This document shows, piece after piece, positions 29,419 to 50,963 of a stretch of DNA of 64,000 bases (position 1 is its first letter; every line of letters begins with the position of its first letter). The notes below the pieces were generated by a model that did no database searches, was not told the origin of the DNA, and saw only the letters and a list, made by a program, of their open reading frames with translations. The position numbers and the translations under genes are program-made. The DNA comes from Crossaster papposus (taxonomy: Eukaryota; Echinodermata; Asteroidea; Velatida; Solasteridae): the NCBI GenBank assembly GCA_037893245.1, contig JBAIAA010000028.1, positions 1,240,001 through 1,304,000 on the forward strand. The letters are read 5' to 3'.

Positions 29419-30527
29419 TGAGCACGGCCTGGACCTGTTACGAAAAAGGTCAATGTGAATAAACTAACACCGGAAGTGGCAGGTCAGTTGCGTTCCAACG
29501 GCACTTCATGGCTCATCGCCGCGGGGGGAGATCGTTATCTTTCGCTCAACTTAATCTAATCGGCCACTTTTGGGAAGCGTAAGTTACGCCATTTTGGTCG
29601 CGTAACTTACGCCGCGCGGGTGGATTAGAGCGTTCCAACGGACAGATTAACTTAGTATTTTTGGATTAGATTAACTTACGCCACCGTCTGAACGTACCCC
29701 ATGATTGTAAAACTTCAGACAGGTTAGTTAAACGATATTTACTATAAAATACAACCCCCCAAATCCACTCATTCAAGATAATTCAAGCAATTACCAATGG
29801 TGTATCCTACCCTTTGGTTTGGGGAGTTGTGAGTATTCTTGGAAGTGGGGGTTTTCGGGGGGGGGGGTATTATAAGCTAAAAGGTTCGGCTAAACTGTAT
29901 CGGACCTTTCATCGTTACGGATTTATTCGATGGAAGTACAAGGATAGTGATACAGCAATGCGCGCTTCTGTTCCAAATTTCTAATTGTTCACGATGTCAT
30001 GTATGTTCTGTGTAAACCAATTAATCCAAAGTGTCAATACATTTTGTAGCCGATGCACCGATAATCCCTAGAATCACTGATAGTGATGTCTGCTACTGTC
30101 TGCATGGCAGCTGTGCACAGGTCGTCGTTTTATTGCTTGTCTGAGTTTTAGTGTGTTAGAAGTGGCGACTCGAAACCCTTGATCTTGTTTAGGTCATTGA
30201 CTTTACTAGCCGAATTAGCGAGTATCATTTACAGTGTTTGAGGTTCGTTCTGTGTAGAAAAGAAAGCAAAGGACTTTATACATGGCAGTGATCTTAGAAA
30301 TTGTACGCGCTCCATAATCGCATAGTACGCACACACATCTTTGTACAACACGCTCTATATGGCTAGATGGTGCCCCCAATCTGATTCCAAGACTAAAATA
30401 TTTGATTTCAATGTTGACGCCAGTGACGTTGTCAGGTCAGATAACACGATTACCAGACTACGCTCTAGCCCTCCCTATACGTCTCTCCCTTATGTTGCAA
30501 AGAGTGAAGTCCCCACACCAACAATTA

Positions 30528-43117: not shown

Positions 43118-44656
43118 ATTTCAAAAATTTCATAAAACATGTATAATTAATTGGCCATCAGCCTCGTTAAATAAACATTCATGTCGTTTTTTGTAGACTG
43201 GTTCCTTGACTTTCTTTAAACGAAACAGAGCAAGTATTTATAGACGTCAGGTAATTATCAGGTTAGGAAACCAGACTAGTTAGCTGCCACACATTCACAG
43301 ATGTGTAACAGTATTACAAATAAAACCATTCACCAAAAATAAAAATATTCACCATACAGTCAAGTAAGGTACTCCATAATAATTCAGAAGTTTCTCTTTT
43401 TCCTTTTTGTATGTTTGCAAATCAGTAAACTACCTTTAAAGGTATAGGGTACTATCTTGTCAGTTGTGCATCATTTAAAACAGCAACAGTTCTCAAAATC
43501 TAAAGAATGGTGCTTGACAACTAACCTGACAATATTTTAGCTCTTTGAATGCTGTAAATTCTGAGGAAATAATTTGCAAGAATTTTGATTTTGAACCAAC
43601 TATAATGAACATTCCCAAAATTGCGTCTCTGAGATGCATTTTTGGACTTCTTTTATTATAATTGTTTTCTTCAAAATGACAGCATGCCAGAAGGAATAAT
43701 TTCACAGGGAGTTTAGAGTGATTAATATCTTAACATCAAGTAAGCTTCTGAATAATTATTTGATTGGTTACTTTTTGGATGGTTGCAAAAGGTATACTAT
43801 CCCTTTAGATTTGGTCACTGAAAGTTACAGGACAAGTAATTCTAAAGTCGTGGGGGTCACAATTTAGAAGTCGGCCAGCCGGCCGACAGCGCTTGCGGAT
43901 CGGCCCCCAAACTATGGAACGCCAAAGAGGCATAAACCCCGCTCAACGCATCGATCGGTCTTTTGCATCGACCGATCGGTCTTTTACATCGACCGATCGG
44001 TCTTGTACATCGATCGATCGTTTTTTTACATCGACCGATCGGTCTTTCTACCGATCGGTCTTTTACATCGACCGATCGGTCTTTCTACCGATCGGTCTTT
44101 TACATCGACCGATCGGTCTTTTACATCGACCGATCGGTCTTTCTACCGATCGGTCTTTTACATCGACCGATCGGTCTTTTACATCGACCGATCGGTCTTT
44201 TACATCGACCGATCGGTCTTTTACATCGAGCGATCGGTCTTTCTTTCTACCGATCGGTCTTTTACATCGACCGATCGGTCGTTGCCATCGACCGATAGAT
44301 GAAAAAAGACCGATGAAAAAAGACCGATGAAAAAAGACCGATGAAAAGTACACCGCGCCAAAGAGGCATAAATCCGACCAACCTTGTTGACGTACGTGTA
44401 CATGTACACAATCTAGTTGAGCCGGCCAATCATACGTTAGATGCATATTCACACTGCACCACGTGCGTAGTCTTCGTATACCATAACACATGTACATGTA
44501 CATGTACGTAAACACACGGATTACGTGCTTGTGTCGGAGAAGGCCGCTGATGCTATTTATCAATCAACGACCTGTTAAGAAAATGGACTGACCACTGCAC
44601 GGTCCCCTCGTGAAATGGTCTCCTTGAGCACTGCATGTCTTGCAAGCAAGTATTCC

Positions 44657-45762
44657 CCTCATCGCCACCTAAGGTCATCTGGCAAACATCTTCTTGTGAC
44701 ACCAAGAACTAGAACATTGGGCCGTATGCATAAAAACTAGCATTTGCTTTTACTATCAATTTTCAAGCATTTACTGGAATCTGTATGAATAAAAAATAAA
44801 GCAAAAGGTTTTACTTGAAAGTATTTGCTAAAGACTAAAAGTATTTACTTTTTAATTTCCAGCATTTGCTAGAATATTAGTATTTGCTCCATTTGGTATG
44901 AATAAAAATGAGTAAATGCTTCAGATTTGCAGTATTTACTCGTAATTTTTCAAGGTTGGGTCGGGGCTACCTTGAAAAAAGAGAAGCAAATACTAATATA
45001 AAAAATAGAAGCTTTTGTATATTGTGGTTAGGCAGGAAAAGTTATGAACATGGAAGATGGATTGTCTAGGATTAAAATGCAAGCAGTTGTACTGATTTTG
45101 GGCAAGGAAATGAGACGTAGATGGCCGATAATTTCTTGCAATATTGCTGAGACAGAAAACGGCATCGTGACTGCGAAGCAGTAACTTGAGGTTCCGATTT
45201 CATTCAAACACCCCTGTCAGCGTACGAGCGTCTATGCGTGGGTGTGTATCGTACACACAATAGAGACTCTATTGTTATAAACCATTCGGCTGTGAAATCA
45301 ATTGCAAGTAAAAAGCATTTACTGCTATTTCAGCCAGTAAATGCTAAACAGTAAAACTTTATTTTATTCATACGAATTGAAGCATTTGCTTTTACTTAAT
45401 GCTTTTACTTCGAAGTAAATGCTTTTACTTTTTGCTTGTACTTCATAGCATTTGCTAGTTTTTATTCATACGACCCATTGTATGGTGACCAAGCCTTCTC
45501 AGTCTCGGCCCCCACTCTATGGAACTCTTTGCCTCGTCAGGAAATTCGTAGCTGTCAATCTTTACAAACCTTCAAATGCCTTCTTAAAACATTCATGTTT
45601 AACTCAACTTATAATTAGAATGCTTGTTTTTGTTTCAAGTGACTTGGAAATTAATTATTATTGTACGGTAACTTTTCTTAAAGCGCCTCGGAATATGTCT
45701 ACATAGATAGATGGCGCTTTACAAATGCTTGTACAGTATTATTATTATTATTATTATTATTA
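44657..45762 (+). mobile_element. CR1/L2-like LINE 3' end in the foldback loop, interrupted
   Basis: 44660-44718 encodes HLRSSGKHLLVTPRTRTL and 45477-45618 continues YGDQAFSVSAPTLWNSLP ... FKCLLKTFMFNSTYN, then a stop. Together they are the usual C-terminus of CR1/L2 ORF2. The 3' UTR has AGCGCCTCGGAATATG and ATAGATGGCGCTTT, and ends in (TTA)n at 45739-45762. It is interrupted by the MITE at 44719-45476. Confidence 0.85.
44719..45476. mobile_element. 758-bp MITE with 3-bp target duplication inside the LINE
   Basis: Ends GGGCCGTATGCATAAAAACT and AGTTTTTATTCATACGACCC are inverted. ATT is duplicated (44716-44718 and 45477-45479), and removing the element restores the LINE reading frame exactly. 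The interior is full of AGCATTTGCT / AGTAAATGCTT words in both orientations. A 3-bp duplication with GGG-type ends suggests PIF/Harbinger, as inference. Confidence 0.85.
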
Positions 45763-47715
45763 TCTGAATAGTTAAAAAAAAACATACGGTTGTCGGGAAT
45801 TTGCTTGCAAGGCATGCAGTGCTCAAGGAGACCATTTCACGAGGGGACCGTGCAGTGGTCAGTTCATTTTCTTAACTGGTCGTTGATTGATAAATAGCAT
45901 CAACGGCCTTCTCCGACACAAGCACGTAATCCGTATGTTTACGTACATGTACATGTACATGTGTTATGGTATACGAAGACTACGCACGTGGTGCAGTGTA
46001 TACATTGTACTGCACCACGTGCAGTACAATGTATACATTGTGAATATGCATTGTGAATATGCATCTAACGTATGATTGGCTCAACTAGATTGTGTACATG
46101 TACACGTACGTCAACAAGGTTGGTCGGATTTATGCCTCTTTGGCGCGGTGTACTTTTCATCGGTCTTTTTTCATCGGTCTTTTTTCATCGGTCTTTTTTC
46201 ATCGGTCTTTTTTCATCGGTCTTTTTTCATCGATCGGTCGATGGCAACGACCGATCGGTCGATGTAAAACACCGATCGGTAGAAAGAAAGACCGATCGCT
46301 CGATGTAAAAGACCGATCGGTCGATGTAAAAGACCGATCGGTCGATGTAAAAGACCGATCGGTAGAAAGACCGATCGGTCGATAAAAGACCGATCGGTCG
46401 ATGTAAAAGACCGATCGGTAGAAAGACCGATCGGTCGATGTAAAAGACCGATCGGTAGAAAGACCGATCGGTCGATGTAAAAAAACGATCGATCGATGTA
46501 CAAGACCGATCGGTCGATGTAAAAGACCGATCGGTCGATGCAAAAGACCGATCGATGCGTTGAACGGGGTTTATGCCTCTTTGGCGTTCCATACCAAACG
46601 CCGCACCACAAAGAACTACTAAGCGGCCCAAAACGAACCGGACTCAAATTGTACGCAGACAAAAGCGTGGTAATAAGGACCGCTTGTGTCAATGCCCTCC
46701 GTGCAAGAAAGGGACGCCAGCTTTTACAAGTCTTCAGTTTAAAAAAAAGCAATTCATCTGAACAATACATGATTGACGGATGTTTGTAAGCATTAGATCA
46801 TAGAGCTGACAACTCCAATGTGAGACAGCGGCCAAACCCCAGCTTCGTCTCCGTCTTGCTTCGTTTTTGCAGTTTGACAATGGCGATGGAGCCAGACCTA
46901 AGCTGTAGTTTGGAAAACGGCCAGTGGGTGATGGGCAAAACGATGTTCTTTTAATTAAAGAAAACCAATTTACTTGGGGGTTTTTTCATATGAATTCTTG
47001 GTGGGGCTAACAAATATTCCCTATTGGAGAGTCAGTAAAAATACGCCCCCCCCCCCCCGCGACCGAAATTTCGAATTGCACACAAACAAAATAAATATGT
47101 TTCCATTCTGTGCCCCTAGAAAATTGGTGCACCCCACGTGGCTGACAAATTAACCCTAGTTACCCTAGGTACATTCCAACTAAACCTTTAGATGGGACCA
47201 CACTGGATTGACTGGAAATATTAGGCATGTGCGTTCAAAGACCAAGTTTCCCTCCCAATGTTATGCTTTTTAAAATAATTATACCTAAGAGCACATGCAA
47301 AAAATACATATTTTGTGTCCCCAATTTTTTTTTACTTTTTCGATTTAACGCCGACCGTCCGATGAGACGAATTTAGAACGAATCAGAATGCTACAAACTT
47401 GAAATATGCACCTTAATTGAAATTGTAATATTTCAAAATTGAAATACAGCTCGGCGATGTCCGCTGACGAAATTCAAGTGTCATTACAGTGAATGCGTGT
47501 GACATGTGTAAAAATGACAGGGAAAACCTGTACTAAATCTTGGGATGAGCAACTATTCATTTTCCAACGGTTCCACAAGGGCTTGATTCCATCTACCAAT
47601 GTTTTTTTCAAATAGTCACTTCTATCACTATATACCGATTGGTGATATTGTGCCGTGCCTTTGATGGTACAAGCATGAAATTTGACACACAGTCGGAGTA
47701 TGTCATGAGAAAGAT

Positions 47716-50396: not shown

Positions 50397-50795
50397 CATC
50401 ATCATCATCCATCATTTAGGCTGTGTTCATCCAGTGTAGGATGTAGCCCTCCTCATGAAAATGCCATTCATTTCTATTTCTTGCAGTTCTGGTCCATGTT
50501 GTACCTGCATATGCCCTGATGTCATCTCTCCATCTTCTTTTCTGTCTACCTCTTTTCCTTTTCCCTGTCCTTGGTTGCCAATCCATTATTCTTGTTGTCC
50601 ATCTATTGTCATTTCTTCGGGCAGTGTGTCCAGCCCATCTCCATTTAGCTTGTTTTATTGTCCTTATGATGTCTCTTACTCCAGTTTTCTTTCGTATTTC
50701 TGTGCATTTAATCCTGTCTCGAATTGAGATATGTAGCATTTGTCTCTCCATTGCTCTTTGTGCTGTGCGGAGTTTATGTTCTATTAGTTTTCTAT
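50397..50795 (-). mobile_element. 5'-truncated RTE-like LINE fragment with 14-bp target duplication
   Basis: The minus strand encodes the C-terminus of an RTE-type ORF2: KLRTAQRAMERQMLHISI, RDRIKCTEIR, IKQAKWRWAGHTARR, RWTTRIMDWQPRTGKRKRG, RRWRDDI and ARNRNEWHFHEEGY. It ends in a short (TGA)n-like tail (CATCATCATC on the plus strand at 50397). TAGTATTGTAGTAT is perfectly duplicated at 50383-50396 and 50796-50809. Too short to be active. Confidence 0.9.
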
Positions 50796-50963
50796 TAGTA
50801 TTGTAGTATGTTACAGCAAATTTCGTTACACTGACTTATTTGACGTTTGGGTTCGTACATGACTTTTGTAGATGCTGTAGAAATTATTTAATTTACTGAT
50901 TTGTGAGGCGTCGGACCTCTGAGACGTTGGACTTATGCACTTGTCAATTGATATCCCGGCCCC

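Follow-up and report, generated by a model that had tools for sequence, protein, structure and literature searches.

The 64,000-nucleotide window analyzed here (Crossaster papposus contig JBAIAA010000028.1, positions 1,240,001 to 1,304,000) contains a foldback-shaped insert of 2,681 bp at positions 43913 to 46593, bounded on both sides by the hexamer CCAAAC (43907 to 43912 and 46594 to 46599). The first-pass annotation of this DNA had recognized a foldback insert with exactly these coordinates and a 6-bp target site duplication, and both are borne out by the flanks and by empty copies of the site. These lie at four paralogous places in the window (31775, 35694, 53076, and 59121), one more than the three first claimed; the single CCAAAC is kept at three of them, and the remaining one reads TCAAAC. 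The empty sites have their source in diverged segmental duplications that extend over positions 29985 to 64000 in blocks of approximately 86 to 95% identity. The insert is a real transposon, recently mobile and without genes of its own.

The arms occupy positions 43913 to 44657 (745 bp) and 45795 to 46593 (799 bp), in agreement with the 750 to 800 bp and the palindrome arrays originally described, and align with 704 of 716 columns identical (98.3%) plus 112 gap columns. The element starts with TATGGAACGCCAAAGAGGCATAAA and ends with its inverse. Each arm is built of a tip, an array of 21- and 16-bp units, a short 14-bp array, an inner direct copy of the tip motif, and an inner part. On the left (plus strand), sequence reading and comparison place the terminus TATGGAACGCCAAAGAGGCATAAACCCCG... 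at 43913 to 43949, its outer 21 bp being common to a second transposase lineage (lineage B, below). It is followed by the array of 21/16-bp units centered on the palindrome GACCGATCGGTC (43952 to 44296, from tandem-repeat and motif searches), by the 14-bp array GATGAAAAAAGACC (44298 to 44347, from Tandem Repeats Finder), and by CGCCAAAGAGGCATAAA, a repetition of the terminal motif that borders the arrays on their inner side (44356 to 44379). The same parts are inverted on the right (minus strand): terminus at 46557 to 46593, palindrome array at 46231 to 46554, counterpart of the 14-bp array at 46154 to 46232, and inner copy of the terminal motif, read in the sequence, at 46122 to 46145. Arm comparison pairs the inner left arm (44380 to 44657) with the inner right arm (45795 to 46121). 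The palindrome occurs 19 times within the window and in none of 100 shuffles. The core CGATCGGT is present at 16 sites in the left array and 15 in the right, spaced mostly by 21 bp and three times per arm by 16 bp. Repeat arrays in the arms had thus been correctly noticed, and the earlier count of 18 to 20 units per arm was slightly high, because Tandem Repeats Finder gives copy numbers of 17.2 (left) and 16.3 (right). DNA folding of three repeat units (z-score, −4.3) restates the palindromes.

The loop between the arms (44658 to 45794) was resolved by genome comparison into two pieces, at 44668 to 44716 and 45476 to 45770, which resemble the 3′ end of a long interspersed nuclear element (LINE), and an insert resembling a miniature inverted-repeat transposable element (MITE) nested between them at 44717 to 45475. 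The LINE-like sequence has stops in the one frame translated, and the MITE-like insert has inverted repeats that are imperfect, together with what seems to be a duplication of CATTG. The loop, comprising LINE-like piece and MITE, recurs at 98 to 100% identity in 13 other loci of the genome (on C982, C363, C255, C130, C746, C711, C95, C1272, C435, C177, C36, C18, and C1221; contigs are labeled C plus a number), and a copy on C3 has the LINE-like piece (∼96%) and an empty MITE site. The window subfamily therefore most likely spread after the nested MITE had entered the loop. Copies on C372 and C385 contain the loop in pieces only, within the stretches compared.

Relatives were sought in the window's own assembly (1.02 Gb). 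The palindrome GACCGATCGGTC occurs 1,834 times in it, versus 23 times for a reversed control, and a 24-bp tip pattern with at most 3 mismatches has 483 matches versus 1, a count that takes in lineage-B ends, which lie two bases off the pattern. Findings on tip pairs are drawn from 100 of the 483 places, those listed, or from chosen places. Inverted pairs are frequent among the 100 and lie on many contigs, with spans from 1.2 to 24.6 kb; some of the listed places have no listed partner. An identical 6-bp duplication was found in 18 of 20 end pairs tested, including pairs on C156 and C233 that share their flanks (CAAAAA) and may go back to a single insertion. Across 30 arms, the number of CGATCGGT sites per arm varies from 1 to 30 (median, 16). 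One place, C19:674220, combines the same tip with different subterminal sequence and a single CGATCGGT site in the first 900 bp, and is possibly a further subfamily.

Copies of 3.7 to 3.9 kb recur about 260 kb apart on C156 (195677, 455925, 725673, and 988966) and about 105 kb apart on C455 (119385, 225427, 329652, and 441675). This regular spacing and the flanks shared by C156 and C233 suggest very large duplications or an assembly effect. Together with the satellite-like character of the arrays, the regularly spaced copies might be read as the mark of a satellite, or of an artifact of palindromic amplification, rather than of a transposon. We regard such an origin as next to impossible, because inverted pairs lie on many contigs, 18 of 20 tested have 6-bp duplications, and four empty paralogs exist. 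The outcome that the first-pass annotation had named as fatal to its own proposal, a single satellite locus without target duplications, is likewise contradicted by the 1,834 palindromes (23 for the control), by the many contigs on which the listed ends lie, and by these duplications.

The annotation had also called for an autonomous relative with a transposase between arms that match the window element over roughly their first 40 bp, and such relatives were found among giant elements with the same ends and arrays. The element at C106:1239925-1264543 is 24,619 bp long, lies between copies of GTACAC, and has inverted repeats of ∼2.2 kb at 96% identity. A second, at C216:263976-290087 (26,112 bp; duplication TTCCAC), also has the inner copy of the terminal motif in its left arm; its right end, TTCTATA, is one base off the tip and was located by predicting the duplication from the left flank. 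A third, at C838:43859-98828 (55 kb; outer duplication AGGGAA), is a head-to-tail dimer of a 27.5-kb giant, the joint of which runs through the arrays without exact tips. In all three giants to which such a prediction was applied, C216 (TTCCAC) and the lineage-B elements on C639 (GAGGAT) and C725 (TTAATT), the predicted duplication was recovered at the opposite end.

On the minus strand of the C106 giant lie exons of a transposase, labeled A to E. The catalytic exon matches the Pfam family rva_4 with an E value of 4e-43, and the start of the profile is in the preceding exon (profile positions 2 to 21, then 21 to 117). Exons B to E, among which GT-AG junctions fit and the last of which ends in a stop, together match rva_4 (PF24764) with an E value of 5.4e-84 over positions 2 to 186 of 194, and the integrase core rve (PF00665) with an E value of 7e-8. 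The residues D, D, and E are separated by 39 and 34 residues (DD34E). A search of solved structures returned retroviral integrases as the best matches, weakly (E = 0.003). When a 326-bp piece of the catalytic exon was searched against the genome, it was matched over its full length at four places (C106, C838 twice, and C216), all of them inside elements with window-type ends, and the same two rva_4 exons were detected in C106, C216, and both C838 units by the rva_4 search. At C599 only 40 bp match, most of the exon being missing there. The elements on C106, C216, and C838 are therefore candidate autonomous partners of the window element, as judged from sequence. A further giant of 22.6 kb (C211:69934-92532; duplication AGGCTA) has no match to the catalytic-exon piece, and part of its interior, at C211:71300-76300, is cargo that looks like diverged repeats rich in TGACGTCA-like words.

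The termini, duplications, and transposase together point to a superfamily. Complete IS3EU families are described as ending in TA..TA, in most cases between 6-bp duplications, and are grouped with GingerRoot (PMC10045372), and IS3EU elements of rust fungi have TAYGG..CCRTA ends, 6-bp duplications, and TET/JBP and alpha-kinase genes, with the transposase and alpha-kinase in opposite orientations (PMC12730594). The elements described here likewise have TA..TA termini, 6-bp duplications, and an rve-type DD-E transposase; TATGG..CCATA stands at the duplication in the window element, in the 18 matching pairs, and on C639 and C725, copies found mostly by a pattern containing that tip. We infer that the rva_4 family is linked to IS3EU. 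The window element also has the structure of the foldback class, with arms of 745 and 799 bp out of 2,681 bp that consist largely of tandem arrays around a loop. Our reading, to which we assign a probability of roughly 0.88, is that it is a non-autonomous, foldback-shaped IS3EU/GingerRoot DNA transposon moved by the DD34E (rva_4) transposase of the giants on C106, C216, and C838.

Several points weigh against this placement. It was made by features and not by phylogeny with reference IS3EU proteins, and the model is built from genome sequence. The 20 end pairs were not a random sample, being mostly the first exact-tip places listed, and two of them have no matching duplication (C49:1165677-1172897 and C130:1813043-1815036). 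The splice acceptor that would join transposase exon A to exon B is uncertain, the helix-turn-helix matches of the N-terminal exon are weak and under the Pfam cut-offs, and any role of the HECT gene that the giants also encode (below) is inferential. Unmatched flanks such as those on C49 and at C130:1813043 are what one would expect after copies had recombined with each other.

Foldback elements of the Mutator and P (Galileo) superfamilies typically have a loop between long arms that contain tandem repeats, and kinship with FB/Galileo elements had been suggested at first. Galileo and its P superfamily duplicate 7 to 8 bp of target, and Mutator-type foldbacks duplicate 8 to 10 bp. Membership in the Galileo/P superfamily was rejected on the rva_4 transposase and the 6-bp duplications, as was a Mutator-type foldback, the transposase not being that of a Mutator-like element. 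IS3EU/GingerRoot is preferred over FB/Galileo because the linked transposase is of the rva_4/rve integrase type, and kinship with FB/Galileo is accordingly not supported. Galileo of Drosophila does resemble the present elements in its long terminal inverted repeats with internal tandem repeats, which hold extra transposase-binding sites (PMC3688188), but its transposase is of the P type with a THAP domain, whereas the rva_4 transposase has a weakly helix-turn-helix-like N terminus. That a Mutator or P foldback merely looks alike is, on balance, very improbable. Polintons/Mavericks, which are marked by a retroviral-type integrase and a protein-primed DNA polymerase, share the 6-bp duplication; for the integrase-like exon of C106, rva_4 was a much stronger match than rve, and no polymerase was noticed by eye in the longer C106 reading frames, not all of which were profile-scanned.

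Compared with the IS3EU/GingerRoot elements on record, which share TA..TA termini, 6-bp duplications, an rve-type DD-E transposase, and, in rust fungi, further genes, those described here differ in giants of 22.5 to 38.5 kb, in foldback arms with palindromic arrays, and in a HECT passenger, none of which is mentioned in the consulted part of the IS3EU account (PMC10045372). Among the open-licence PubMed Central articles listed on IS3EU or GingerRoot and on HECT with transposons, no title or abstract opening describes a HECT-carrying or foldback IS3EU element. An association of IS3EU with tandem repeats has some precedent, since two oyster satellites are annotated as IS3EU-like (PMC8268682). 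Tetris of Drosophila virilis is likewise a non-autonomous foldback with variable tandem arrays in its arms; its repeats are of ∼220 bp and its partner was not found (PMC4079207), whereas a candidate partner is found here. Foldback elements can be orphans, as Tetris is; for the present one, we can name a superfamily and a candidate autonomous partner with its transposase. The TU elements of the sea urchin are foldbacks with arrays of short repeats in their outer arms, a likeness drawn from descriptions; they have 15-bp repeats and 8-bp duplications, against 21/16-bp repeats and 6-bp duplications in the window element. The sea urchin is also named among foldback hosts in the article on Tetris (PMC4079207).

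Giant elements of a second lineage, lineage B, were found at C639:382276-420817 (38,542 bp; duplication GAGGAT) and C725:380998-403465 (22,468 bp; duplication TTAATT). Both have the window-type 21-bp tip, followed by arrays of 20-bp period in which CGATCGGT is present and the full palindrome absent; past the tip, no match longer than 17 bp links the C639 arm with the window element. A pattern made for these ends has 150 matches versus 0 for the control, with many short pairs among the 100 listed, and an end pair at C711:379431-402476 encloses HECT and transposase genes. The HECT copies on C725, C711 (twice), and C639 each have an rva_4 transposase next to them, one that the C106 exon DNA did not match; the transposase on C639, the one read, shares 80.6% identity with its C106 counterpart in one exon and 67.5% in the exon that follows.

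The HECT gene of the C106 giant has its exons on the plus strand at about 1243832 to 1254735, convergent with the transposase. Its domain matches the C-terminal quarter of the Pfam profile (E = 1.7e-13) and contains KTC, which fits the catalytic cysteine motif. A 465-bp stretch that includes one exon has seven matches at 99 to 100% identity (C106, C838 twice, C725, C711 twice, and C639) and two of 75% over ∼100 bp (C216 and C599). C725 and C711 match C106 over positions 1246522 to 1256143 (∼9.6 kb, 95 to 100%) and not beyond, in the stretches compared. Between C216 and C106, the transposase exon is 99% identical and the HECT exon 60.5% in protein over 76 residues. The transposase and HECT genes therefore have different histories, since the identities of C639, C725, and C711 and of C216 disagree between the two genes; the simplest reading of the sequences is that lineages have exchanged the HECT part, one edge of which lies inside the HECT gene and the other between the two genes. 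On C725, C711, and C639 there are no ends at the positions predicted from the size of C106. That these HECT copies are host genes outside transposons was rejected, as an adjacent rva_4 transposase and ends of their own were found.

A genome search with part of a HECT exon returned 20 loci. Eleven of them (on C106, C838 twice, C216, C711 twice, C725, C639, C251, C279, and C253) have an rva_4 match no more than 10 kb away, convergent in every case, where ∼0.06 would be expected by chance. When the loci are collapsed to 10 types by identity, a grouping of our own, 4 of the 10 are adjacent to rva_4 (P ≈ 1.5e-8). The other nine loci (C599, C188, C212, C267, C603, C719, C17, C60, and C311) have no rva_4 within 10 kb among the matches listed, a number that may be an overcount because 150 of 434 rva_4 candidates were scored. 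These nine, and the many introns of the gene, would suit an ordinary host HECT gene caught by chance in some giants and without a role in them. We consider chance capture unlikely, given the 11 convergent neighbors and HECT types in the rva_4-adjacent loci that range from 49 to 100% identity to that of C106. A broader proposal, tentative and somewhat short of even odds, is that these elements form an IS3EU clade of giants that would have HECT as a standing second gene across several transposase lineages, exchanged as a cassette and serving as an accessory factor (for example, by clearing away a host repressor or by modulating the transposase), while the foldback arrays would be multivalent docking sites that let elements of 22 to 38 kb move. 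Passenger genes passed between lineages are seen in fungal transposons, where TET/JBP genes have moved between transposon lineages, IS3EU among them (PMC12730594); the passenger there is a dioxygenase and here a HECT ubiquitin ligase. What is found in this genome is that giants of 22 to 38 kb with such ends, between clean 6-bp duplications, carry a multi-exon ubiquitin-ligase gene, and the two lineages between which HECT genes were swapped allow a test of whether a transposon-borne ubiquitin ligase aids transposition.

The arrays are likely docking sites for the transposase, to judge by the arms of the two lineages. This idea gains indirect support because the lineage-B arms, otherwise unalignable with those of the window type, keep the identical 21-bp tip and, beside it, an array of the CGATCGGT core at 20 to 21 bp. 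The transposase of the giants may recognize the TATGG tip together with the CGATCGG core repeated in the arrays, the helix-turn-helix-like N terminus being a possible point of contact, and would dock on the arrays in many copies. Many CGATCGG sites set about two helical turns apart (20 to 21 bp) could raise affinity or specificity and so aid very long elements. Transfer of the ends to a target with a 6-bp stagger would then produce the 6-bp duplication, and the HECT E3 ligase of the giants may benefit the element by targeting a protein of the host or of the element itself. The variation from 1 to 30 sites among the 30 arms and the joining of the C838 dimer through its arrays would also suit arrays that are slippage by-products, a source of double-stranded RNA, or a substrate for recombination, and not binding sites. 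We find these alternatives rather doubtful, as CGATCGGT is arrayed at 20 to 21 bp beside an identical tip in both lineages, whose arms do not otherwise align. The existence of two such lineages makes the proposed docking function of short-palindrome arrays in long arms testable.

Elsewhere in the window, an open frame on the minus strand (50416 to 50835) resembles, by eye, part of the protein of a non-long-terminal-repeat retrotransposon.

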